Shown here: positions 11,360-28,726 of the stretch, in pieces
How positions within the stretch are numbered: position 1 is the first letter of the stretch
Layout: every line of letters starts with the position of its first letter
Origin: Selenomonadales bacterium
GTDB taxonomy: Bacteria; Bacillota; Negativicutes; Sporomusales; UBA7701
Direction of reading: 5' to 3'
DNA length: 64,000 bases
Assembly: GCA_029975165.1 (NCBI GenBank)
Contig: JARKPR010000088.1
Coordinates: 62,001-126,000, forward strand
Notes under the pieces: model-generated
Told to the model about the DNA's origin: nothing
The model's database searches: none
Seen by the model: the letters and a program-made list of their open reading frames with translations, nothing else
Program-made: the position numbers and the translations under genes

Positions 11360-11782
11360 CTATTGCATGCGTTTGATGACGTCGTCGGTAATGTCCGTCC
11401 CGCCCTGGGCGACGCTGGTTTTGTACAGGACGACGCCGAGTTTCTTTTCCTTGGCTACTGCTTCGACGGACTGTTTGATGCTGGCGTCTACCTGGCTTTC
11501 GAGATCCTGCTTGATCTTGAGGAAATCGTTGTAAGCGGTTTCCTGCTTCTTCTGGAATTCCTCGGCGCTGAGGCTGGCCTTGTCTTTATCGAGTTGGTCG
11601 CTAAGTTCTTTGGCTTTGCCGTTCAGCTGATCCTGGAGCGTTTTGACTTTGGGGCTGTCGCTCATGACTTTGTTGACGTCGAGGATGCCTACCGCGCCCG
11701 CTCCGGACGAGCACCCGCCGATAAGCAGGGCGACCAGGAGTACTGCGGCTACGGTTAAAATCATTGTCTTGCTGTGTCGCAT
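11360..11782 (-). CDS. OmpH/Skp-like periplasmic chaperone, lipoprotein (copy 3)
   Basis: The lipobox LIGGC follows a hydrophobic signal, so the 140-residue product is probably a lipoprotein. The body is the Skp/OmpH pattern: a short beta-strand (AVGILDVNKVMSDSPKVKTL), a long coiled-coil hairpin rich in K, D, E and Q, and a return strand (LGVVLYKTSVAQGGTDITDDVIKRM). Skp chaperones hold unfolded outer-membrane proteins for BamA, which is encoded upstream in this cluster. It is the third OmpH-like gene in a row and directly precedes lpxD. GGAGG lies seven bases before the ATG. Confidence 0.85.
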   Translation of the reverse strand: MRHSKTMILTVAAVLLVALLIGGCSSGAGAVGILDVNKVMSDSPKVKTLQDQLNGKAKELSDQLDKDKASLSAEEFQKKQETAYNDFLKIKQDLESQVDASIKQSVEAVAKEKKLGVVLYKTSVAQGGTDITDDVIKRMQ

Positions 11783-11833
11783 TAGAATCCCTCCGTTATC
11801 GATACTTGCCCGGGTTTATTATGCGCCAGGCGT

Positions 11834-12721
11834 TTACTTATTAAACTCGGCGATCACCGCGTCGGTTATGTCGACGGCAGCGACGTTAACCTTGACGCCG
11901 GCAAGCACGGCTCCCAGGCCTTGCTTTTCCGCCACTTTGGCCGTTTTGTCGCGGATGTCGGCGACGATGGCTTCTTGCAGGGCGGCGATTTGGCGGTCGG
12001 CGGCGGCCATTTTCTCCGCCGTGTCGCTGCCGGCTTGTCCAGGGGCGGCGGGACGTCCGGCCGCCGCCTGCTGGCCGGCGATTTGGCCGGCCATTTCGCT
12101 TTGCAGGCTGCCGGCGTAGGCGGCGAGTTCTTTCTCGCCGTCGCTCTGCTTGGCTTTCATCGTTGCGTCCGCCTTGCCGAGGAGTTCCTGGCGGCGGGCG
12201 TCGATTTTCGCGGCCCGCTCCTGCTGCAGCTTGTCGATCTGCTCTTGCAGGTCGGTCGCTTCCTCTTTGCTGAGTTGGACGGTCTTGAGCTTGAGCTGGA
12301 GGCTGAAAATCTGGGGCTGGTAATCCTTGTCCGCCTCGGCGGCGTACGCGTCGAGTTCGGAGGCCATGTCGCGTCGCACCTGGTCGGCGGCCGCGTCCAG
12401 CCGCGTGCCGATCTCGGCTTTTTTGGCCGCCATGCGGGCGTCGAATTCCTTGGCGGCGGCCTGTTCCATGCCGGCGGCCGTGGCAGCCCCCTGGGCCCTT
12501 GCTGCTTCGAGGCTGGCGGCAAGGGCGGCATAGTCCTTCTGCAGGCGGCCGACTTCAGCATATTTCGGGTGGGCTTTTATCGTTTTTTCCATGTCGATGG
12601 CGCCGAGTTGGGGCGGCGCGTCGGGCGGGGCGGTTTTAGCCTGCTGCGAACCACAGCCGGCTACGACCAGAGAGGCGAAGGCGAAGGCTACTAATGCGAT
12701 TCTGGCGCAATTCCTCAGCAC
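11834..12721 (-). CDS. OmpH/Skp-like lipoprotein with extended coiled coil (copy 2)
   Basis: At 295 residues this is about twice the usual OmpH size. A signal with lipobox VVAGC is followed by an OmpH-type opening (QLGAIDMEKTIKAHPKYAEV). A long Ala/Gln/Lys/Glu-rich helical region (about 60-240) comes next, and the family's closing strand (LGAVLAGVKVNVAAVDITDAVI) ends it. The lengthened hairpin suggests longer tentacles than Skp. It starts with GTG after GGGAGGTGG. It has the same closing motif as its two neighbours, so the three genes probably arose by tandem duplication. Client specificity is unknown. Confidence 0.75.
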   Translation of the reverse strand: MLRNCARIALVAFAFASLVVAGCGSQQAKTAPPDAPPQLGAIDMEKTIKAHPKYAEVGRLQKDYAALAASLEAARAQGAATAAGMEQAAAKEFDARMAAKKAEIGTRLDAAADQVRRDMASELDAYAAEADKDYQPQIFSLQLKLKTVQLSKEEATDLQEQIDKLQQERAAKIDARRQELLGKADATMKAKQSDGEKELAAYAGSLQSEMAGQIAGQQAAAGRPAAPGQAGSDTAEKMAAADRQIAALQEAIVADIRDKTAKVAEKQGLGAVLAGVKVNVAAVDITDAVIAEFNK

Positions 12722-12791
12722 GAAACCACCTCCCGGTTACGAATAAAGAACCGAGCGCAGCATAACCGGCTCGGAAATAAACGACTATTGG

Positions 12792-13256
12792 TTATTTGCC
12801 GCCTAGTTTCTTTTTCACGTCGTCCGTGATGTCTTGGCCGCCGTAAACCACTGTGTTTACCGGCATTACTACCGCCAGGCCTTTGATTTCGGCAACCTCC
12901 TTGATGGTCGCCATGACCTTGTCTTCGATCGGTTTCAGGAGTTCCCCCTGCCTGACCTGCAGCCGCTGCTGGAGTTGCAGGAAATAGTCTTGCTTTTCCT
13001 TGTCGTTCATCGTTGCGGTTTTGTCGTTGAAGTCTTTCTGGGCTTGCTCCTGTTCGGCCTGCATCGTTGCGGCGAATTTGGCGAAGTCGGGATGCGATCT
13101 TACGAGGTCCTCGTAATTTACCTTGCCAACGTTGCTAGCGGGTGCAGCCTGAGATGTACCGGTCTGCGACACTGCTATGCCAACGACACTGAGCAAAAAT
13201 ACTAACGCAATGGCGACAGAAACGACTTTGATTTGCTTCTTATCGATTTTGAGCAC
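12792..13256 (-). CDS. OmpH/Skp-like periplasmic chaperone (copy 1)
   Basis: This 154-residue protein has an N-terminal hydrophobic segment (about 11-31, signal or anchor) without a clear lipobox. The OmpH core follows: VGKVNYEDLVRSHPDFAKF, a glutamine-rich coiled hairpin (QDYFLQLQQRLQVRQGEL region), and the closing VVYGGQDITDDVKKKLGG. It is the first of three OmpH-like genes and has its own good promoter 46 bases upstream. The start is GTG with GAGGG six bases before it. A Skp-like holding role for outer-membrane proteins is inferred from family and from proximity to bamA. Confidence 0.85.
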   Translation of the reverse strand: MLKIDKKQIKVVSVAIALVFLLSVVGIAVSQTGTSQAAPASNVGKVNYEDLVRSHPDFAKFAATMQAEQEQAQKDFNDKTATMNDKEKQDYFLQLQQRLQVRQGELLKPIEDKVMATIKEVAEIKGLAVVMPVNTVVYGGQDITDDVKKKLGGK

Positions 13257-13341: not shown

Positions 13342-14622
13342 CTACAGATTGCCCACCAATCGCAGCCAGCGGTTGTCGGTGGTAATTATATATTCGACGC
13401 TGAGAAACTCGTGCAGTTTGTAGCGCAAGCCGACTTCGTTGAACCGCAGTGCCGGCGTTCGCTCAAGGCGCAGCGACCAGCGGTTGTCCAGGTCTTGCTT
13501 GAGCCAAACGATGCTCTGCTCGCTGTTGAGGTTGTATTTGGCGCCGGCCACGGTTTGCGCCCCCAGGCGGTGTCCCCAGCCAGGCACGAATTCCCATGTG
13601 ACCGAAGACGGGATAAACGTGACTTCGAGGAATAATTCGTCCGTCCGGCCGACGTACTGGCCGACATGCAATCTGGCCGAGGTGTCGTTCTGCCTGCGCC
13701 CCATGTCCATGTAGCCTTCGAGGGTCACGTTGTATTTCGTGGTGTCGGCGCTGATTTCCAGTTCGGTATTCGTGCCCGGCTTGAGGGACGAGGCGAGGGT
13801 GAGGCCGTAGCGTTTCGTCGCCGCCTGATTGGCGGCCACTTTCGTCAGCATGTCCTTGAAATAGTCGCCGTGCCGTTCGACGAAGGCTACCGGCAGGCCC
13901 CTCATGGGCGCGGCCGCTTCTTCCACCGCCGGCCGCGCTGCGAGCAGCAGGAAGTTGGGGATGGTCCGCGAACGCACCGTGACCTGCACGTCCTTGACAA
14001 GCGGACCGGTAGGCGCCAGCAGCAATTTCACGATCGTCACCGGTCCGGGGATTATCTCGATGTTGGCCCGGTATTCCGGGAGCTGGACGGCAAGGATTTC
14101 CCGGATGACGGTTTTGGTGACGCTGCCCGCCCAGTCGACCGCGTCCACCGGCATGCCTACGAGCACTTGGGCGGCTTTGTTTTCGATGTCGCCCATGTCG
14201 CTGCGGAACAAGCCGCTGAGCGGCGGCGCTATCCCGCCGAGATCGGTTTCCAGGGCTACGCTGCGCACAACGTCGCCGAGCGGCGAAATTTTCACGGCGA
14301 TGCTTGTCGTCGGACCGGGGGTGATGTCGACCTCCTGCACCCAATAGCCGACAAGTACGCGGTCGAACACTTCCTTGATCAATTTCTCGAAGGATGCCTT
14401 GCCGCTCTCGATGTCGGTCACTTTCCGCCCGGTCAGCACGTGGTCGCCCACGGTGGCGACGCTTTGCTCCATCCGCTTGATGACGCGGCTGGGCGGCGGA
14501 GCGTCGACGGCCTGCACGCTGACCGTGACCGCGTCGACGGTCACGGTTTCGGCCGCCGCCGGACAGGTCCAGCCTGCCAAGATCAGCATTGTCGCTAACG
14601 TTATCACGCAAACGCTCCGCAC
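13342..14622 (-). CDS. Unrecognised envelope protein with possible POTRA-like repeats and C-terminal beta-strands
   Basis: No named family was recognised. After a signal peptide ending CPAAAETV there are two similar stretches. One is VDITPGPTTSIAVKISPLG; the other is IEIIPGPVTIVKLLLAPTG. Each is followed by strand-like sequence, which looks like duplicated alpha/beta modules of POTRA type. The C-terminal 150 residues (RYGLTLASSLKPGTNTELEI to RWLRLVGNL) alternate like outer-membrane beta-strands. The start is uncertain: I chose the GTG at 14622 because it gives a basic signal n-region, but a GTG at 14607 has a better-spaced GGAG. It lies between bamA and the ompH genes, so a role in outer-membrane assembly is plausible. 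Confidence 0.55.
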   Translation of the reverse strand: MRSVCVITLATMLILAGWTCPAAAETVTVDAVTVSVQAVDAPPPSRVIKRMEQSVATVGDHVLTGRKVTDIESGKASFEKLIKEVFDRVLVGYWVQEVDITPGPTTSIAVKISPLGDVVRSVALETDLGGIAPPLSGLFRSDMGDIENKAAQVLVGMPVDAVDWAGSVTKTVIREILAVQLPEYRANIEIIPGPVTIVKLLLAPTGPLVKDVQVTVRSRTIPNFLLLAARPAVEEAAAPMRGLPVAFVERHGDYFKDMLTKVAANQAATKRYGLTLASSLKPGTNTELEISADTTKYNVTLEGYMDMGRRQNDTSARLHVGQYVGRTDELFLEVTFIPSSVTWEFVPGWGHRLGAQTVAGAKYNLNSEQSIVWLKQDLDNRWSLRLERTPALRFNEVGLRYKLHEFLSVEYIITTDNRWLRLVGNL

Positions 14623-14694: not shown

Positions 14695-14726
14695 AAAACA
14701 AGAGCCAGGCCTAGACCTGGCTCTTG
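14695..14726 (-). terminator. Intrinsic terminator after bamA
   Basis: CAAGAGCCAGG (14699-14709) and CCTGGCTCTTG (14716-14726) form a perfect 11-bp stem with a 6-base loop, followed by TTTT on the minus strand. It closes the tamB-sigma-bamA unit. Confidence 0.8.
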
Positions 14727-14732
14727 CTGCCG

Positions 14733-16505
14733 TTAGAATTGGCCGCCGAAGCTGAAGTGCGTCCTGCCGCCCTCGTCGCCCCTGGCGTAATCGAGCCTGA
14801 TGGGACCAAGCGGGGTGTTGACGCGGATGCCGACGCCGACGGCTGCTTTGAGGTCGTCGAGCTTGTAGCTGCCGTCCCAAGCGTTGCCGAGGTCGCCGAA
14901 GACTACGCCTTCGATCTTTTTGGCCACCGGGAAGCGATATTCGGCGGTCGCGGCGAACATCTTGCTGCCTTTGAACTGCGCATCGTCGTAGCCGCGGAGG
15001 GTTTCGGGGCCGCCAACCCAGAACTTGCCGCTGTCGGGTATCTTGCCGTCTGCGAAGCCGGCCATCAGGCGGACCGCGATCACTTGCTCGCGGCCGACCT
15101 TGAAGTACTGGCGGTCCTGAGCGGTGTATTTGTTGAAGTTAAAGTCGCCGCCGAACGCTTTACCGGCGAACTCCGCCGACAGCGAGAACATCGACCCCTC
15201 GGTGGGGCTGAAGACGTTGTCGCGGGAGTCGAAGACCCGCGACAGGGTCACGCTGCGCGTCAGGCCGAAGTTGTCCGTAAGCCACTGATTATTGTAGTCG
15301 GAGCGATAGCCAGTACCACCCGGGTCCGCCTTGTAGTCGACCGGGCCTGATACGTACCTGACGTATTCGTCGCGCCGGTTCTTGAGGGTGATATAGTTTT
15401 GCACATATTCGCCCTGCGGTCGGCCGAGGGTGATTTCGAAACCGGTGCGTTTGCGGTCGTAGGTCGAGCGGAGGGTCCTGTCGTTGCCGTCAAGACCGTA
15501 ATCGTTGTACTGATTGGTCAGGTTGTAGATGGTGAAGCCCGCCGAGGTCTGCTTGCTGTCCAGCCAGGGACGGGTGTAGGAGAATTCGTAGTTCGTGCCG
15601 TAATCCGCGTTGCCGCCGAACTCCCAGTGGATCTTGGCCTGGTCGCCGGTGCCGCGGAAGTTCCTGTCGCCGAGCTCGATGATCCCCACCAGGCCGTCGG
15701 CCTGACTGTAGCCGGCCCCGACCGAGAACGTGCCGGTCTTCTGTTCGACGACGTTGGTTTCGAGGACGACCGAGTTCGGCTCCTTGCCGGGGTTGAGCTT
15801 CATGTTGACGTCTTCGAAGTAGCCGAGGTTGTACACCTTCTGCATACTCCGGCGGGCGTCCTTGACGTTGAAGGGTTCGCCGGGTTTGACCTTCATCTCG
15901 CGGGTGATGACGTAGGTTTTGGTCTTTTCGTTGCCTTTGACCGATATCCCTTCCAGCATCCCCTCGTTGACGGTGATGGTCAGCACCCCGCCGGGGCTCA
16001 TGGAGACGTCGCTTACCTTGGCCAATACGTAGCCTTGGTCGTGGTAGTAGTTTTCGACAGCGCGGGCGTTGTCGCTCAGCGCTTTGCTGTTGAGCACCTT
16101 GCCCTTGGTTACCGTTAGCAGGCTTTTGATCTTATCGGTGGATACTTTGCTGTTGCCCTTGACGACAACGTCTGTCAGGGCCGGGTTTTCCAATACCGAG
16201 TAGACCACTTTGACGCCTTCGGGAACTTCGGTGAAATTGGATACTACGTCGAAAAAGCTCCCTAGGTCGTAAATCGCCCGCATATCTTGCTGAACCTTGT
16301 CGGCACTGAGCGTGTCGCCGGGTTTAAGCTTTATCACCGCCATTATGTCGCTCGTAGGCACGCTGGTGTTGCCGGAGACGCTGACGGCGGTGACCCTTTT
16401 CCCGGTAAGGTCGGCAGCATGGGTGGGAGCGACGGAGCCCAGCACGATTCCTAGCGCGATGACAGCTGAGAGTAAAAGGTGCCCGAAGTACCTCCTCGCT
16501 TTCAT
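14733..16505 (-). CDS. bamA: Outer-membrane protein assembly factor BamA
   Basis: This Omp85 protein inserts beta-barrels into the outer membrane. A signal peptide is followed by three POTRA domains, beginning around KRVTAVSVSGNTSV, LTDVVVKGNSKVS and LEGISVKGNEKTK. A 16-strand-type barrel follows from about residue 265. The Omp85 signature GGPETLRGYDD is present and the last residue is Phe, the classic barrel terminus. At 590 residues with three POTRAs it is shorter than the five-POTRA proteobacterial form. AAAGGAGG precedes the ATG. It follows a one-TM gene, a sigma factor and tamB on the same strand. Confidence 0.95.
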   Translation of the reverse strand: MKARRYFGHLLLSAVIALGIVLGSVAPTHAADLTGKRVTAVSVSGNTSVPTSDIMAVIKLKPGDTLSADKVQQDMRAIYDLGSFFDVVSNFTEVPEGVKVVYSVLENPALTDVVVKGNSKVSTDKIKSLLTVTKGKVLNSKALSDNARAVENYYHDQGYVLAKVSDVSMSPGGVLTITVNEGMLEGISVKGNEKTKTYVITREMKVKPGEPFNVKDARRSMQKVYNLGYFEDVNMKLNPGKEPNSVVLETNVVEQKTGTFSVGAGYSQADGLVGIIELGDRNFRGTGDQAKIHWEFGGNADYGTNYEFSYTRPWLDSKQTSAGFTIYNLTNQYNDYGLDGNDRTLRSTYDRKRTGFEITLGRPQGEYVQNYITLKNRRDEYVRYVSGPVDYKADPGGTGYRSDYNNQWLTDNFGLTRSVTLSRVFDSRDNVFSPTEGSMFSLSAEFAGKAFGGDFNFNKYTAQDRQYFKVGREQVIAVRLMAGFADGKIPDSGKFWVGGPETLRGYDDAQFKGSKMFAATAEYRFPVAKKIEGVVFGDLGNAWDGSYKLDDLKAAVGVGIRVNTPLGPIRLDYARGDEGGRTHFSFGGQF

Positions 16506-16528: not shown

Positions 16529-17092
16529 TTATTGGCCGCGCAACGACTTTCCGGCAGCCCGGATGACATCTTTCATCTCGTCCTGCGACAGCAGGCTCTC
16601 CTTTTCCGCCGGTTGCTGACGCCCGTTGTTTTCCGGACGCCTGGCCGCAGGCATGGTGGTTTCCCGAGGAGGATTGCTGGCCGGACCGGCTATCGCTGGC
16701 CGCTGATCCTCGACCCGGACCGGCGCGGCAGAATCGTTGGCCTTCAGGACCCCCGGTGTGCTCTTGGCTCCCGGCGTGGTCTTGGCCTCCTGCGCGGCAA
16801 GTGGAATGGGCACAGCGACGTGGCGTTCGCTAAACCCCCAGTATGCCCCGAAACCGGCGGCAATGATGGCGGCGGCGAGTACGAAGGACGTCGCTTGGCG
16901 CAAAAGCGGCATTCTGTAGCGCTCTTGCCGGGAGAGGCTCGTCTCCCGCGCGTGCTGAAGCTCGGCCTGTGCTAACAGGAGGTCGAGTTCGCCGCGAAGT
17001 TTGCTGTTCTTGTCGAAAGACTCCTCGGCCCGCGTTAGCCACACTTTGGCGGAACGCAGGTGACGAAACATATTCCCTTTGAAATCCGCCAT
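16529..17092 (-). CDS. One-transmembrane protein of unknown function upstream of bamA
   Basis: The 187-residue product has a charged, probably helical cytoplasmic N-terminus (about 1-65), one membrane segment (about 68-88, SFVLAAAIIAAGFGAYWG), a Pro/Ala-rich linker and a short C-terminal helix ending KDVIRAAGKSLRGQ. I start it at the ATG at 17092 because GGGGTGG lies five bases upstream; the earlier in-frame GTGs overlap that site. No family was recognised. Lying between a sigma-factor gene and bamA, it has the single-TM shape of an anti-sigma factor, but no zinc or anti-sigma motif is visible, so that is only a suggestion. Confidence 0.55.
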   Translation of the reverse strand: MADFKGNMFRHLRSAKVWLTRAEESFDKNSKLRGELDLLLAQAELQHARETSLSRQERYRMPLLRQATSFVLAAAIIAAGFGAYWGFSERHVAVPIPLAAQEAKTTPGAKSTPGVLKANDSAAPVRVEDQRPAIAGPASNPPRETTMPAARRPENNGRQQPAEKESLLSQDEMKDVIRAAGKSLRGQ

Positions 17093-17234
17093 TTCCACCA
17101 CCCCTATTATAGCTACAATATATAGTCATGGGAATAGGCCAGATTCTGGTCGCTCCTGCAAGGGCAAAATACAGCGTTTTATAGGTATATTGCAGTATTA
17201 TCTCCCGTATTCTCCCTCTTTCTGCCCCTTTTCG

Positions 17235-17891
17235 CTACAATGAATTTTTCATGTCTTGCATGAGCCGCGACAGCAGGCCGCGGATCCTGCGGATGCCCTG
17301 TTTGTGGAGCCGATAGACGTGTGACAGGCTCATATCGAGGGATTCGGCCAGTTGCCTGGGCTCACGCTCGTCGAGGTACATGCCCGACAGTATCATCTGC
17401 TCGTTGGCCGGCAGGCGTTCGAGGGCGCCGCGGACCTGAGCCACGAGGAAATTCCGCTCGGCCTGGATCGCGACCGCCGGCGCGTCGTCCACCAGCGCGT
17501 CCCCCAGGGTCAGGCTGCCGGCGTCGTCCAGGGGGCTATCGATATACAGCCAGTCGGTTTTGCCTTCGCGGGCGACGAAATTGGCCATCCGGCCGCGGAT
17601 GCGGTGAAAGGCGTACAGGCTGAACGCCACGCCGCGGTTGTGGTCGAAGCTTTCCACCGCTTCGATGAGGCCGACGGTGCCTTCCTGGATTATATCCATG
17701 GCCGCGGTATCGTCTACCCGCCAGCGGAGCGCCACTTTAAACACCAACGGCTGGTAATGCTCGATGAGCTGCCGGCGGCTGTCGAGGTCGCCATCTTCCT
17801 TGTAGGCTTCCCACAGCCGTTTTTCTTCGGCGATGTCCAGCAGACGAATTTTCCTGAGCTCCGCCAGATACTGGCTCAACACGGTAATCAT
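17235..17891 (-). CDS. Sigma-70-family RNA polymerase sigma factor
   Basis: Region 2 is clear (MDIIQEGTVGLIEAVESFD, then RIRGRM), matching the core-binding and -10 recognition segments. Region 4 carries a helix-turn-helix (RQLAESLDMSLSHVYRLHKQG) near the C-terminus. Region 3 is short. At 218 residues it is the size of the FliA/SigF/SigH class rather than RpoD or an ECF factor. It begins six bases after tamB and precedes bamA, so it is co-transcribed with outer-membrane assembly genes. Its regulon is unknown, and an envelope-stress role is inferred from position. FliA identity is less likely because the region 2 wording differs. Confidence 0.8.
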   Translation of the reverse strand: MITVLSQYLAELRKIRLLDIAEEKRLWEAYKEDGDLDSRRQLIEHYQPLVFKVALRWRVDDTAAMDIIQEGTVGLIEAVESFDHNRGVAFSLYAFHRIRGRMANFVAREGKTDWLYIDSPLDDAGSLTLGDALVDDAPAVAIQAERNFLVAQVRGALERLPANEQMILSGMYLDEREPRQLAESLDMSLSHVYRLHKQGIRRIRGLLSRLMQDMKNSL

Positions 17892-17897
17892 CCCCGC

Positions 17898-20800
17898 TTA
17901 GAAATTAAACCTGGCTTCGACGCCGACCCGCTTGCGGTTGAGTTCGTCCACAGCTCCCGTGACGCTTAACCGCCGGGTGATGTCGTAACGCATGTAGGCG
18001 CTTGTCTCTTTGTGGTCGAGGCCCATCGTATAGCTGATGAACAGCCGGTCGGAGACGTATTTGCCGATTTCGATGTTGTAGACCTCGCGGTCGAGGGCCG
18101 ACGCCCGGCCCGAAGTCGTGGACCTGCCCGGTACTACGTTGTTGGTGCTTTGCGAGGTCCCGTCGGCGGCGAGGGTGCTGCGCACAAGGCGGAATTCGTC
18201 GAGACCGAAGGCGTTGCGGAAGGCGCTTTCGGCTTCAGCCACGAAGGCGATCTGCAGGCCGGCGTCAAGGAGATTCAAGAGTTCGTCCCGGCCGAGGCCG
18301 GTATCGGCGCCGCCGCCCTCCGTGCCTTGCCTGTCGAAGTAACGGCTGCGCAGCGTGAGGAGCGAGAGGATCTGTTGCTGGCTCATCGCCGGTTCGGAGC
18401 TCAGGCGGAAGTCCATCGCGTCGAGCGGCCCGCTCACCGCCAGTTTGACGGTGGTGTATTCCAGCCTGGTGTTGGCGGTCATCCTGACGACCGGCATAAG
18501 GGACCCGAACTGGGTAAAGTCCGCTCGGCCGGAATCTACCGTGAATTTGGTGCGCAGGTAGTTTACTGAGCCCCGGTCGACGGCGAAATGCCCCGAGGCC
18601 TCGGGGGCCAGGGTGGTCCCGGTGAATCTCGCTTTGCCTTCCACCAGCAGGTCGTAGAGATAGGGGTTGAACAGCCGCACCCTGCTGGCGGCGACGACTT
18701 CCAGGTCGAGGCCGATGTCGAGGCCCGAGGATGCGAACTCGGGCACGAGCGGTACGTTGATCGTCGTGTTGTCGAATACGAGCCTGCCGGCAAGAACCGG
18801 CTTGCCGCCGCTGGCGTCGAGGGTAAGCGTGCCTTCCAGCGGCCCCTTGAAGTATTTATGGTTGACGCCCAGCTTGTTCAGCACGAGCAGCAGGCGGTAG
18901 TCCGCCAGGGAAAGCCCCTTCATCGCCGCCGTGCCTGTCAGGCGGTAGGAGCCGTCGCCCATGCTGCCGTCGAAGGTTATTATATTAATTTTATCACCTT
19001 CGAACTTAATATCAACCCCAACTTTTTGCAGCGGGTCGGCCAGTTGTTTGAGCTTGACGGTGCCGTCCTTTATGGCGATGCCGCCGTAAAGGAGCGGCTG
19101 GGCCAAGGTGCCCCCTACGGTCAGCTCGCCGTGGGTTGGCCCGGAAGCCCAGGCCACTTCCTTGGTGAGCAGCGGCAGGATGCTCAGGTCGGCCTGCTCC
19201 AGGCGCACCTTGAGATCCATCTGGTCGGCGATCGTCCCCCGCTGCCGCCCTTCCGGGTTGAGGGCGGCCAGGGGGATGGTCCCGTATGCACTGGCCCGGT
19301 ACGGGCCTTTGCTGATCAGCAGTTGGTTGACGTTTATGCTTCCCTTGTCGAGGACGAACAGCCCGTACAGGGAGTCGAAGGTGGCGTTGGCCACGCCGCC
19401 GCCGCCGATTTCCAGCGAAACGGCGGCATAGGGGCTGTATGAGGTGCCCGCGATCTGGGCGGTGAAGGTGATTTTGCCGCGGGTTTCGACCGTGGCGTCG
19501 GTCCAGGCCGTCAACAGTCCGGCATCCAGGCCCCGGCCGCTTATTTCCACGTCGAGCGGCCCGCCGATGGTGGCGGTGCCTAGGGCCGCCAGCACCCCGT
19601 CGCCCTGTTTGGCGAAAAAGCGGTTGATCGTCACCACTTTCCCGTTCAGGGCGATGTCGGCCTCGATGTTGTCCAGGGAATAGTTTTTGATCTTGCCTTT
19701 GGTCAGCGTGCCGGTCAGCCGGATGTCGGGTTTGGCCACCGTGCCGCCCAGGCTGACATGGCCGTCGAGACGGCCGTCGATGTCCTTGGCCGGGACGCCC
19801 AAGATGGCGAGCAAGCCGGCAACGCTGCCCCGCTGCGCTTCGAGGTCACCGTAGAGCGACCCGCTTTCAAAAACGATGCCGCCGGTAAAGGTGAATTTGC
19901 CCTCGCCCTGCGAAAATCCGAAATTGGGCACGCTCAGCTGGTCGGCGTCCACATTCACCCGGCCCGCGACATCGGTTATCTCCTGGCCGTTCAGCTTCAG
20001 GCCGGCGGCGGCGATCTCGCCGTCGAACACCAGGGCCTCCGGGGTGCCTGTAAGGCGGCCGGTGAAGTTGGTCCGGCCGGCCACCGCATAGGGGAACCTC
20101 ACCTGGATGGCGGCCAGGTCGATATCCTTGGCGGACACTTCGAGATTAAGCTGGCTGGTGGCCGAGATGGTGCCGCCGAACTTGACCTCGGCGTTCAGCG
20201 AATTGACCACGAAGTCGCGCAGCTCGGTCACGCCGCCCTGGCGGCGGTAATATCCTTCGGCCCGCGCGATGAGCTGGTCGCGGAAACTGCCCTCGCTGAG
20301 CCTGACGTGGCCTTCGGCGGCGAACGCCGCCAGCGGCCCGGTTATCGTCACGTCGTTGTCAATGTTGCCTGTGAGCCTCTCGCCCGGCAGGATCAGTTTT
20401 ACGATGTTTTCCGCCCGCGCCTGGCGGGTGGCGACGGTGAGGTTGAGTTCCTGCGCCCCGGTCAGGCCGACGGTGCCGTTGACCGTGTGCCTGGCGGCCC
20501 CGTCCGCCGCCTCGACCCCCGTGAGGGTGAGGGCGTCGCGCGTCACGGCCACGCTGCCTTTGGCGATGGCGAACGGCTGCTGGAGCACCCTGCCGTTGTA
20601 AGCGGTGAAGCGGGCCGTCGCCCTGGGGGCGTCGGTCGTCCCGTCAAGCGCGCCCTCCGTGTCGACCGTGCCGGCCAGATCCACGCCGCCGGCCGGGCCC
20701 GCCAGCGCCGCCAGGGGAACCCCCTGGCCGAAAAAGTTCAGCGCCAGCCGGCCGTTATCGGCCGTTCCCCGGGCCGACAGCGTCCCGCCGCCGGGAAAAC

Positions 20801-22154
20801 CGACCGTTATATAGTCGGCCGTCAGTCGGCCGCCGGCTTTGAAGAAGCCGGCGGCCAGGCTGGCGAAAGGCACGCCCTCGATTTGGCCGCCGCTTGCCTG
20901 GACCGTGCCGGCGACCTTCATCGCGGCCACGTCGTCCGTGCCCTCGACGCGCAGGTCGATGTCGGCGCGCCCGGCCATGCTGACCCCGAGGTAAGGCAGG
21001 GCCGCCAGGTCGAGGCTGCGGCCGTTCAGTGCGAAATTGAACGCTTTCTTGGCGGGCAGGACGGTGCCGGAGCCGTTTATCCGGCCGCCGAACACATCGG
21101 CTTTTACGCTTACCACCGGCTGCGACGGCGTGCCGCCGACAGTGGCGGTGAACGACAGCGGCCCGCCCACCGGAATGGTTCCGTCGAGGGCCGCCGGGTC
21201 GAACTTCGCGGCGCTGACCGTAAGGCCCAGCACCGGCCCGGCAGCGCCCAGGGTTACCTTACCCCGCAGCTCGATGTCCTGTCCGTAAATCTTTGCGGCT
21301 ATGGGGAAAAGGAATATCTGCTTGTCGCTGAAGGAAACGCTGCCGCTGATGTCCTGCATCGCGACGCCGGCGGCGTCGATGCTCACACCGGCGAATTCGG
21401 CTTCGCCGGCATAAACAAGCTGGTCTTTATCCCGCCGCAGGATGATCTGGCCCCGGGCCAACCGGCCGCCGACCGCCCTGACGCCGCTATCGGCCGGCAG
21501 CAGCGCTCCTAGCCCGTCGAGGCCGAGGTTGCTCGCCTCGGCGGCCACCATGCCTTCGCCTTTACTGTTCATGCGCCCGGTGGCCTCCAGCGACGCTCCT
21601 TCATATGTAGCGGCAAGCTTGAAAGCTATGTCGGGTTTGTCGGCAAAATCGAACCCGGCGTCGATGGCGGCCAGCTGCCACTGCCCCTGCGGAGCGCTGA
21701 CCGCCAGCGTGCCCTGGTTGACGGTTATCCTGCCGCCGAACTGCGAGTCGCCTGAGCGGGTTTTCGCCAGCAGGTCGTCAATGTTCCAGGTGCCGTCCGC
21801 CTGCCTGATGAGGCTGATCCGGGGCGTATCGAGGGAAAGCTCCCGGACCGCCTCGACCGCGGTCTTGCCCCCTAACAGGGCCAGCGGATTGTATACCACC
21901 GTGACCTTCGGGGCGGCGGCAATCAGCCCGCCGCGGTTGTCGCTGATGACGACGTCGGACAGCGCGACCTTGTTGAACGACGCGATCTCGATGCTGCCGA
22001 CCGCGACGCCGCCGCCCAGGGCCTTGGTCAATTCCGACTCTAGTTTATCGTTCATCCCCGCCATGACGGTCTGGCTTTTGCTGTATAGAAATGCGCCGGC
22101 GACAATGGCAATCAAAAAAGCCACTACAGCCAGTACCATGGCTTTTTGCCGCAT
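17898..22154 (-). CDS. tamB: TamB/AsmA-like bridge protein
   Basis: A 1418-residue protein with one N-terminal membrane anchor (about 7-26), a very long repetitive beta-rich body, and a DUF490-type C-terminus ending VGVEARFNF. TamB-family proteins span the periplasm as a hydrophobic groove and move phospholipid to the outer membrane. The start is the ATG at 22154, which has GGGAGG five bases upstream; an ATG ten codons earlier lacks such a site. It is the head of a unit with the sigma factor, the one-TM protein and bamA. The pairing of tamB with bamA, without a separate tamA, fits what is known of BamA-linked TamB in other phyla. Confidence 0.9.
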   Translation of the reverse strand: MRQKAMVLAVVAFLIAIVAGAFLYSKSQTVMAGMNDKLESELTKALGGGVAVGSIEIASFNKVALSDVVISDNRGGLIAAAPKVTVVYNPLALLGGKTAVEAVRELSLDTPRISLIRQADGTWNIDDLLAKTRSGDSQFGGRITVNQGTLAVSAPQGQWQLAAIDAGFDFADKPDIAFKLAATYEGASLEATGRMNSKGEGMVAAEASNLGLDGLGALLPADSGVRAVGGRLARGQIILRRDKDQLVYAGEAEFAGVSIDAAGVAMQDISGSVSFSDKQIFLFPIAAKIYGQDIELRGKVTLGAAGPVLGLTVSAAKFDPAALDGTIPVGGPLSFTATVGGTPSQPVVSVKADVFGGRINGSGTVLPAKKAFNFALNGRSLDLAALPYLGVSMAGRADIDLRVEGTDDVAAMKVAGTVQASGGQIEGVPFASLAAGFFKAGGRLTADYITVGFPGGGTLSARGTADNGRLALNFFGQGVPLAALAGPAGGVDLAGTVDTEGALDGTTDAPRATARFTAYNGRVLQQPFAIAKGSVAVTRDALTLTGVEAADGAARHTVNGTVGLTGAQELNLTVATRQARAENIVKLILPGERLTGNIDNDVTITGPLAAFAAEGHVRLSEGSFRDQLIARAEGYYRRQGGVTELRDFVVNSLNAEVKFGGTISATSQLNLEVSAKDIDLAAIQVRFPYAVAGRTNFTGRLTGTPEALVFDGEIAAAGLKLNGQEITDVAGRVNVDADQLSVPNFGFSQGEGKFTFTGGIVFESGSLYGDLEAQRGSVAGLLAILGVPAKDIDGRLDGHVSLGGTVAKPDIRLTGTLTKGKIKNYSLDNIEADIALNGKVVTINRFFAKQGDGVLAALGTATIGGPLDVEISGRGLDAGLLTAWTDATVETRGKITFTAQIAGTSYSPYAAVSLEIGGGGVANATFDSLYGLFVLDKGSINVNQLLISKGPYRASAYGTIPLAALNPEGRQRGTIADQMDLKVRLEQADLSILPLLTKEVAWASGPTHGELTVGGTLAQPLLYGGIAIKDGTVKLKQLADPLQKVGVDIKFEGDKINIITFDGSMGDGSYRLTGTAAMKGLSLADYRLLLVLNKLGVNHKYFKGPLEGTLTLDASGGKPVLAGRLVFDNTTINVPLVPEFASSGLDIGLDLEVVAASRVRLFNPYLYDLLVEGKARFTGTTLAPEASGHFAVDRGSVNYLRTKFTVDSGRADFTQFGSLMPVVRMTANTRLEYTTVKLAVSGPLDAMDFRLSSEPAMSQQQILSLLTLRSRYFDRQGTEGGGADTGLGRDELLNLLDAGLQIAFVAEAESAFRNAFGLDEFRLVRSTLAADGTSQSTNNVVPGRSTTSGRASALDREVYNIEIGKYVSDRLFISYTMGLDHKETSAYMRYDITRRLSVTGAVDELNRKRVGVEARFNF

Positions 22155-22319
22155 ATAAGCCTCCCGCATCTTAGTCTGGTTCATGATTAATTTCGACGCG
22201 GGCGAAGCCCTTCCTTTAAAAAGGCGCTGGGAATAAATTTCAATGGATACTTTATCTATTATTACCGGAAATTTGTCCCATATGCGCCGAGGATAAATTC
22301 ACTGCCGGGCGGCCGCGGA

Positions 22320-26875: not shown

Positions 26876-28726
26876 TCAGTCTTTTGTTATGTTGATGAGT
26901 ATCTGGGTGTCGCTGTCGATGATGTAGTCGGTGCTGACGGTGCTCTTGCTTTCCGGCTTTTTGGCGCCGGCTGTCGGCGCTGACCGCGGCGAGTGCTTGG
27001 CGGCGGCCGCATCGACTTCGTATACGGGCTCGAGCTTGGCGGCCGGGGCTTTCGTCGCCCCCGCCCCGCCCAGGAATTCGCCGGCGTCGGCGCTGAGCAC
27101 TTCGACGACGATGTCGTTGTTGCGGTCCCGCTCGGCCAAGTCTTTGATCATGTCGGCGAACGACTTGGTCTTGAGCTTGCCGATCATCTGGAGAAGCTCG
27201 TCGTCGCCCTTCTGGCGCTTGCTGAGGAGCTCGATCAACGGCACCATGCCGCCGCCGCGGACCTCGAGCGTCATCGGGCCGGCCGGCTGGTCCTTGGGGA
27301 CGGTAAAGGGCACCGTGCGGGTGATCGTCTCGCCCCTGAAGGGCTTGAGGCCGACCGTGATCTCGATCTTATCCCCCGGTTTGGCGGCCGCGACATTCGC
27401 CCGCGCCTCCATGATGGTGGCGGTACGCCGCTCGGGGGTGACGGTCGCGTCGACCTGGATGTCGAAGATGTCCACCGGCTGGAACTGATTGGAGGCCAGC
27501 AGAGCCATGAGCTCGTACAGCTCGCTGATCGTCTGCTCGCCGATGTTGGCCGGGCTGTAGAACATGTTTTCCCGCTTGAAGACTTCGCCGGGCATGTTGC
27601 GGGCGGAAATCTCGAAGGTGATCTTGGAGGTGCCGGCACCGACTCTGTCGGCGGTCTTTTCGATGACGCTGAGCACCGAGGCGGCCGCCAGCACGGGGAA
27701 GAGCTGCTCGTCCTGCACGACCTGGATGACGGCGTCCTGGGAGTTCCCCAGGGTGCTGTCGGTGATGTTGATCCTGAGCGGAACGATGCTCGGGAAACGG
27801 CCGAGCTCGCCGGCAACGCCGGCGCCCCGGTCTTGGTCGATTATGCCCAGGGCCGGACCCACGGCCCCGACTTTGAACGAGTTTTCCAAGCCGTTTACGG
27901 TCGTGAATACATAGGCGTTAGTCAGGAAGTAGCTTGTCCCGCCTTTTTTGAGGAACGGGTGGCCGAACGCCAGCACCTTGTTGCCTTCCACATAGGTAAC
28001 CGTGCCCATCGCTCCCAGGCTGACGTCGCCGCGGACGAGCTGCACGCCCACCGCGCTGCCGGGCTCCAGCGGGGCGAAGGCGGCGTCGGCCGGCGTGTCG
28101 CCGACCGCGTAGGGGGTCAGCTTGAAGGAGCGGAGCTTGTCGGCCAGGAAGGCGAGCGACCGTTCGCCGAACCCGGCGGCCATCAGGGGGGTCGCGGTCT
28201 CTTCGGGGGGCTTGGCGGGGACGTTGTCGGCGCCTTTTTCACCCGGCTGCCCGTCCGGCCGCTGATCGGTTTTTTCCGGCAGCGGCTCTTCGGGGGTCTT
28301 GTCCTTTCCGGGGTCGGGGGCGTTCAGCTCCCATATTTTGAGCATGTCGGCGATGGGGGTGACCATGCCGACCTTGTGGTCGGTGAACGACCACCCGTAG
28401 GCGATGGCGCCGACGAGTTTGCCGTCGATGTAAACCGGGCTGCCGCTCATGCCCTGGGCGATGCCACCGGTGCGGTCGATAAGGTCGCCGAAGGTTCTCA
28501 CCAGGATCAGGTCGCCGGACGGCCCCTTGTTTTTCATTATCCCCAGCACTTCTACGCCGAACTCTTCGATCTGCGTTCCGGACACTACCGTTTTGGCAAT
28601 GCCCTGCATGCCGGCGCGGATGTCGGCTAGCGGCATGATCTCCGGGGCCGCCGCGGCCGTCGCCGCCGGAAGCGTCAGGAGCAAAGCGAAGAGCGCCACC
28701 CGACATAACCTGAGTACGAACGACAT
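26876..28726 (-). CDS. SpoIVB-type S55 peptidase domain protein
   Basis: After a signal peptide the protein shows the S55 serine-protease signature GMSGSPVYIDGKLVGAIAYGW (the Ser of GMSGSP is the nucleophile) near residues 93-113. SpoIVB proper is about 420 residues with a PDZ domain and triggers sigma-K activation. This one is 616 residues, and its C-terminal 250 residues look like a beta-rich domain ending in a Lys/Ala/Pro-rich tail, with no PDZ recognised. It is therefore probably a paralogue with an envelope function, consistent with its place between the Mla and flagellar genes. AAAGG precedes the ATG. Confidence 0.75.
   Translation of the reverse strand: MSFVLRLCRVALFALLLTLPAATAAAAPEIMPLADIRAGMQGIAKTVVSGTQIEEFGVEVLGIMKNKGPSGDLILVRTFGDLIDRTGGIAQGMSGSPVYIDGKLVGAIAYGWSFTDHKVGMVTPIADMLKIWELNAPDPGKDKTPEEPLPEKTDQRPDGQPGEKGADNVPAKPPEETATPLMAAGFGERSLAFLADKLRSFKLTPYAVGDTPADAAFAPLEPGSAVGVQLVRGDVSLGAMGTVTYVEGNKVLAFGHPFLKKGGTSYFLTNAYVFTTVNGLENSFKVGAVGPALGIIDQDRGAGVAGELGRFPSIVPLRINITDSTLGNSQDAVIQVVQDEQLFPVLAAASVLSVIEKTADRVGAGTSKITFEISARNMPGEVFKRENMFYSPANIGEQTISELYELMALLASNQFQPVDIFDIQVDATVTPERRTATIMEARANVAAAKPGDKIEITVGLKPFRGETITRTVPFTVPKDQPAGPMTLEVRGGGMVPLIELLSKRQKGDDELLQMIGKLKTKSFADMIKDLAERDRNNDIVVEVLSADAGEFLGGAGATKAPAAKLEPVYEVDAAAAKHSPRSAPTAGAKKPESKSTVSTDYIIDSDTQILINITKD

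Follow-up and report, generated by a model that had tools for sequence, protein, structure and literature searches.

Two described systems are close to the arrangement considered here. Fec-type signalling (FecI/FecR/FecA) combines a sigma factor with a regulator that spans the membrane once, its N-terminal end facing the cytoplasm and its C-terminal end the periplasm, and with a barrel protein that carries a periplasmic N-terminal part. The RpoE/RseA envelope-stress response comprises a sigma factor, a single-span inhibitor in the inner membrane and targets that function in outer-membrane assembly.

In diderm Firmicutes, an outer-membrane gene cluster containing tamB, bamA, skp and lpx genes has been described (Antunes 2016, PMC5007114). 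The locus analysed here belongs to the same cluster; in the main text of that article, the word sigma occurs 0 times. According to PMC5491611, tamB and bamA of Veillonella parvula correspond to Vpar_0526 and Vpar_0527, and the Skp genes are situated immediately downstream of bamA; since the first two are numbered consecutively and the Skp genes follow at once, V. parvula would presumably not reveal the module described below. PMC2626281 counts 'at least eleven sigma factors' in H. orenii, and its covered part places none of them in the cluster; in the corresponding part of the OmpM paper PMC10628300, where 'sigma' denotes a supplier, there is nothing on this sigma gene. A search of the open literature found no paper on this sigma factor.

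The window, i.e. the whole stretch of 64,000 nucleotides that was analysed, contains the features compiled in Table 1. The initial annotation had described a sigma-70-family protein of 218 residues, encoded six bases from tamB and ahead of the genes for a one-TM protein and bamA, and this layout is confirmed by the ORF list and by Pfam, the gap between the tamB end and the sigma ORF being 6 bases. Two elements had been missed, namely a third partner with POTRA-like domains and a predicted barrel, encoded beyond bamA, and a promoter-like element in front of the one-TM gene. Judged from sequence comparisons, these parts probably constitute a control circuit of sigma factor, membrane anti-sigma and outer-membrane barrel, which is set on bamA and dedicated to outer-membrane assembly.

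Table 1. Features of the sigma locus within the window
Feature	Coordinates	Strand	Basis
Three Skp/OmpH-like genes after the barrel gene	11360..13256	(-)	Names from the published cluster (PMC5491611, covered portions) and position
Barrel gene: outer-membrane-type protein, proposed envelope-side partner	13342..14622	(-)	AlphaFold, Foldseek, co-occurrence
bamA, next after the one-TM gene	14733..16505	(-)	Omp85 1.8e-48, POTRA 7.4e-39; TIGR03303 303.6 bits (cut-off 297.15)
One-TM protein, proposed anti-sigma or co-regulator	16529..17101 (GTG) or 16529..17092 (ATG, initial annotation)	(-)	ORFs, alignment, AlphaFold
Promoter-like element CCAGAA-N15-TGACTATATA	17119..17149 (-35, 17144-17149; -10, 17119-17128)	(-)	EM motif
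Sigma factor, 218 aa, ATG start	17235..17891	(-)	ORF list, Pfam, NCBIfam, tree
tamB, directly before the sigma gene	17898..22184	(-)	PF04357 7.5e-41

Gene order was read at 67 sigma-positive loci, 51 from Negativicutes and 16 from outside the class. The sigma gene is directly preceded by tamB in 67/67, and in 65 loci the following gene, on the same strand, is the one-TM gene, recognised by eye in three of them; the exceptions are L157, with two ORFs between sigma and one-TM gene, and L126, in which the one-TM gene lies elsewhere. Apart from L126, the one-TM gene is always followed by bamA, which in turn is followed by a gene of the barrel type in 60/67 loci. As to the remaining seven, a contig end intervenes in L050, L167 and L169, the gene has moved in L126, and L156, L158 and L171 are devoid of it, no barrel match being found anywhere in the genomes of these three. 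Because the identical order recurs within the class and outside, the arrangement is more than chance. Conservation of the order across Negativicutes, which the initial annotation had proposed as a check, was thus found in the class and beyond it, though the order has been lost in several lineages. A relative of the SpoIVB/S55-like protein (so named by reading) that is encoded upstream of mlaE in the window (26876-28726, minus strand) occurs directly before tamB in several loci outside the class.

Among 300 Negativicutes genomes surveyed, 267 match the sigma factor at 1e-10, and 233 were counted as sigma-positive; in the other 34 the best match reaches only 2e-16 to 1e-10, and these are mostly paralogues. 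A survey of 398 genomes of the phylum revealed 28 sigma-positive ones at E<=1e-20, including 16 outside the class whose orthologues share 39-45% identity across nearly the full length. Omp85 was detected in 102/398 genomes, which include all 28 sigma-positive ones, and the sigma factor is found in 0/296 Omp85-negative genomes (1e-20). Since 74 of the 102 Omp85-positive genomes, 72 of them outside the class, are without a sigma match at 1e-20, an outer membrane does not require the circuit. A profile search of 80 genomes, which took in 66 of these 72, yielded no new orthologue, with six known ones at 239.9-284.4 bits and all others at or below 107.3 bits. Most sampled Negativicutes and some other outer-membrane Firmicutes carry the sigma factor inside the outer-membrane assembly cluster.

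By its sequence, the window sigma factor is assigned to a non-ECF family nearest to FliA/WhiG and without recognisable region 3. Pfam assigns Sigma70_r2 (5.7e-18) and Sigma70_r4 (3.1e-8), and among 41 orthologues (E<=0.01) regions 2 and 4 are present in 41/41, region 1.2 in 13 and Sigma70_r3 in none; the FliA/WhiG protein of the same genome does feature Sigma70_r3 (27.8 bits). The missing region is not unique to this sigma factor, as the SigE-like protein of the genome is equally without it. The closest named relatives, at 84% identity, stem from two Selenomonadales MAGs. In a tree of the twelve other sigma factors of the genome and 17 of the 41 orthologues, the six ECF-type proteins make up a separate side (100/98), which speaks against ECF (group 4) membership, and the window sigma factor falls on the side of RpoD, SigE, SigF, SigG and FliA, in support of the non-ECF type given by the initial annotation. 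The orthologues group together (87/93, not starred) beside FliA/WhiG (95/89), a kinship that is a lead only because of the long branches of this tree.

Membership in a named subfamily was assessed with NCBIfam. Among the best 25 of 73 matching models, which do not include the SigH models, no cut-off is reached except that of the broad TIGR02937 (94.4 versus 42.9); this model, although named sigma70-ECF, is non-discriminating since the genome's own RpoD, SigF, SigG and FliA likewise exceed its threshold. FliA/WhiG membership was rejected on scores of 71.7 bits versus 189.6 for TIGR02479, 80.6 versus 343 for WhiG and 71.0 versus 201 for FliA, and membership among the sporulation sigma factors on 70.5 versus 252 for SigK, 58.2 versus 339 for SigE, 57.0 versus 372 for SigG and 52.9 versus 321.45 for SigF. 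Nor is the protein the FliA/WhiG of its genome, which is a separate protein (L004, 258 bits on TIGR02479). Sigma70_r2 has 13 matches in the genome. Ten of the twelve other sigma factors were scanned; RpoD, a SigF/SigG-family protein, SigG, FliA/WhiG, SigH and two SigZ pass a cut-off, and L007 and L008 are ECF-like. A further protein, L006, comprises Pfam regions 2 and 4 and is named SigE by reading only. Clear orthology to FliA or to a sporulation sigma factor, which the initial annotation had named as counter-evidence, was accordingly not found: the scores lie far under the cut-offs, and the genome possesses its own FliA/WhiG, SigF-, SigG- and SigH-type proteins.

The presence of the sigma factor is closely matched by that of its presumed partners. 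Of the 300 Negativicutes genomes, 233 contain sigma factor and barrel, 0 the sigma factor only, 4 the barrel only and 63 neither. Two of the barrel-only genomes, G026 (74% complete) and G212 (75%), contain a short fragment of the sigma C-terminal end, G242 is 79% complete, and G152 has no TamB match either. At eight sigma-less Negativicutes loci (L128-L132, L134-L136), tamB runs directly into bamA, which is followed by a Skp-like gene in seven, L131 having an unrelated gene there. When these eight genomes were searched throughout, no barrel was found, and the one-TM query gave just two hits, both below 18 bits. Likewise, seven of nine Omp85-positive sigma-less genomes outside the class feature tamB, bamA and a Skp-like gene without the module, and in the other two (L236, L237) bamA has no gene labelled tamB next to it. 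On a 'quick' BamA tree of 83 rows, from which rows shorter than 480 aa as well as L236 and L237 were left out, the sigma state changes at least 12 times. In all ten supported independent pairs of this tree, the one-TM protein changes together with the sigma factor (10/10; sign test, median p 0.002). The barrel changes the same way in 7.8 of 10 pairs on average, shows no difference in 2.2 and never changes in the opposite direction (sign test, median p 0.008). Given that L156, L158 and L171, all from outside the class, possess sigma factor and one-TM protein without it, the barrel is not always needed; these three rows are placed separately on the sigma and BamA trees. On the latter, L156 and L171 have as neighbours L230 and L238, both without any part of the module, perhaps as a result of stepwise loss.

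Physical linkage alone could generate such co-occurrence if the cluster were kept or lost as a block, and in most loci read the three genes do lie within about 5 kb. This explanation is nevertheless highly improbable, since tamB and bamA remain in 8/8 sigma-less Negativicutes loci, with a Skp-like gene next in seven, while the three genes are gone; moreover, one genus includes three genomes (L227, L228, L229; G070, G132, G124) that retain all three genes with the cluster distributed over two contigs, the order one-TM-bamA-barrel-Skp being found on another contig than tamB and sigma. This genus offers a natural experiment on trans action.

The ORF of the one-TM protein, in its GTG form, starts 133 bases from the sigma gene. 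Its layout encompasses a cytoplasmic helical hairpin (WL..AE....RGEL.L.LAQAEL), the TM segment, a Pro-rich linker and a C-terminal helix (EM..L.R.AG.SLRG), and the AlphaFold model (mean pLDDT 78) displays helices at residues 2-30, 34-91, where the hairpin continues into the TM segment, and 173-187. The proteins were compared in an alignment of 58 rows (A2), to which 57 of 66 loci carrying a one-TM gene contribute besides the window; nine loci (L050, L053, L057, L060, L064, L066, L084, L086, L123) are outside A2 and outside the count of C-terminal helices. The cytoplasmic hairpin is the best-conserved part. Given BamA and TamB, the partial distance correlation between sigma factor and hairpin amounts to 0.237 over 49 loci, a value reached in 0/500 permutations, with control correlations of 0.109 for BamA (p 0.098) and 0.149 for TamB (p 0.028); these partial correlations are of small size, and the TamB control departs from zero. 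Conservation of the cytoplasmic part and the 10/10 co-change with the sigma factor lend support to the proposal of the initial annotation that this protein could be the membrane sensor of the sigma factor, a role that stays putative. At the periplasmic end, the pattern [LVIMAT]xxx[AG]xxxL in the last 26 residues, which was picked after the ends had been viewed, occurs in 53/53 rows of A2 with a barrel and in 0/3 without one, and also in two rows at contig ends that are counted in neither group, against a background of 11% in shuffled ends and 4% in linker windows.

A competing explanation, which is less probable yet deserves weight, accepts sigma factor and promoter as real but regards the one-TM protein as an activator or anchor for the sigma factor, or as a structural connection between inner membrane and barrel, so that the sigma factor would just set the level of the operon. 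In line with this, the hairpin matched no known anti-sigma family or fold (Pfam, fold search): the fold search with the one-TM protein gave no match at E<=0.001, and the six Pfam families listed for the 58 members (E<=0.01) include none of the FecR or RseA type. The C-terminal helix, in addition, goes with the barrel in the way expected of a tether. The explanation is opposed by the cytoplasmic part being the best conserved one and by the three barrel-less sigma-positive genomes, which retain the one-TM protein minus its periplasmic helix. A role as membrane anti-sigma is the reading preferred here.

The start of the barrel gene (GTG, 14622) was set by eye from the ribosome-binding site, and the structure model was computed for 13345-14610. 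A signal peptide, three POTRA-like domains and, in the model, a barrel of 10 strands characterise the protein. The AlphaFold model (pLDDT 92.1) comprises three beta-alpha-alpha-beta-beta units and, after them, a ten-stranded barrel; it displays the Omp85 trait of POTRA domains before an outer-membrane barrel, the predicted strand number being ten and that of Omp85 barrels 16. Foldseek relates the protein to BamA/TamA with E values from 5e-11, though with query TM-scores of only 0.14-0.25. With VIA, mainly across residues 218-422, the best matches are 10-strand barrels, namely the designed TMB10 (Z 13.7) and OpcA (Z 13.1). Omp85 or POTRA profiles of Pfam matched 0/39 barrel members at E<=0.01. 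Between bamA and the barrel gene, a terminator-like hairpin, AAGAGCCAGG..CCTGGCTCTT followed by TTTT, was noticed by eye (14695-14725, minus strand), which might keep expression of the barrel below that of bamA.

The promoter-like element emerged from two-block EM on 55 regions upstream of one-TM genes (the rows of A2 less the near copies L047, L048 and L049), anchored on a conserved Trp and seeded with five typed pairs and 50 random seeds; the shuffles received the same five and 20 random seeds. A single-block EM returned the motif incompletely, and the first two-block EM found TTTGCC.. instead, because several one-TM starts had been set too far upstream. The resulting consensus, YCAAAA-N15-GGATTATATA, has a spacer of 15 in 91% of cases, lies about 26 bases before the one-TM start in many loci and attains a log-likelihood of 184.7 versus 55.7-71.3 in five dinucleotide shuffles. 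Sigma-28 promoters follow the grammar TAAA-N15-GCCGATAA; the candidate promoter resembles this consensus in its spacing and A-rich -35 but differs in the -10. In the window, the element scores 15.3, the best value, with 11.6 as the next, and a 30-base form of it has no second copy in the genome when up to 3 mismatches are allowed. Scores of at least 7.5 are reached by 31/55 one-TM genes versus 1/416 other genes (13 families, same loci). The three split-contig genomes, which lie outside the training set and belong to one genus, score 10.1, 11.2 and 10.1 against a maximum of 5.4 in 55 base-shuffled regions. Before bamA in the eight sigma-less relatives, the scores amount to 0.6-4.4 in seven and to 6.7, above the null, in L129. 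On cross-validation within the class, the 95% null is exceeded in 14/14 close loci and, depending on the training set, in 11/25 or 14/25 of the middle-distance loci. With 2/16 loci above that null, the motif is not established outside the class, where the sigma-to-one-TM spacing is shorter than 65 bases in six of 16 loci and shorter than 31 in five. A near-palindrome, CCAGAATCTGG, coincides in part with the -35, and close to the ribosome-binding site there is a TATAAT box (17105-17151, minus strand), as in many near relatives; a further regulator or a second start may operate there.

These data also bear on the view that the protein is a general stress, growth-phase or sporulation-linked sigma factor with a wide regulon, in which the bamA operon would be one of many targets. 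The SigF-, SigG- and SigH-type proteins of the genome are compatible with it, the pattern search is blind to deviating promoters, and matches with up to two mismatches are 1.3-2.3 times as frequent as those of a reversed-pattern control in five genomes. Conversely, the one-TM promoter is the sole perfect match to NCANAA-N16-GAYTATATNNTG in each of these five same-genus genomes, and the sigma factor is kept in a single-contig genome of 1.27 Mb, in which only three sigma-like stretches were listed at first look; a wide regulon is thus considered improbable. A match with one mismatch that is present in all five genomes was dropped as coding sequence by eye.

Taken together, the circuit favoured here would operate as follows. 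From its gene at the tamB end of the cluster, a position that is observed directly, the sigma factor would guide RNA polymerase to a single principal promoter, YCAAAA-N15-GGATTATATA, before the one-TM gene, bamA, the barrel gene and the Skp-like genes; this use of the promoter is inferred from the motif, its specificity and the co-loss. The one-TM protein may hold the sigma factor at the inner membrane by means of its conserved cytoplasmic hairpin, while its periplasmic C-terminal helix would read the POTRA barrel protein, as suggested by their joint presence and absence. If assembly lagged, the state of the barrel, a likely BAM client, would change and the sigma factor would be released, raising the levels of both bamA and the one-TM protein and thereby closing a negative loop. 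That envelope stress is the signal is a guess. More tentatively, and with somewhat greater doubt than confidence, the module may be a trans-envelope homeostat of three parts around a one-promoter sigma factor. The barrel, BamA-like with its POTRA domains and assembled by BAM as a client, would signal outer-membrane assembly capacity to a novel type of membrane anti-sigma by way of the latter's C-terminal helix and would thereby set the supply of bamA; such a system would be old among diderm Firmicutes and would have been overlooked because Veillonella, a main laboratory model, appears to lack it.

For the adjustment of outer-membrane assembly in diderm Firmicutes, the module offers a concrete candidate comprising promoter, sigma factor, membrane partner and outer-membrane partner, with natural losses as ready controls. 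The sigma factor reaches no named subfamily cut-off, and one-TM protein and barrel match no consistent Pfam family. With FliA/WhiG the sigma factor has in common the RIRG at the end of region 2, but it differs in being tied to outer-membrane genes. Compared with the RpoE/RseA response, it belongs to another group, RseA finds no match in Pfam, a protease step is not identified and only one clear target promoter was found; the two systems nonetheless resemble each other in a sigma factor with a single-span inner-membrane inhibitor, proposed in the case of the module, and targets in outer-membrane assembly. Compared with Fec-type signalling, the module sigma factor is not among the ECFs, the one-TM protein matches no FecR model, and POTRA-like domains with a 10-strand barrel take the place of a TonB-dependent receptor, whereas the three-part layout is common to both.
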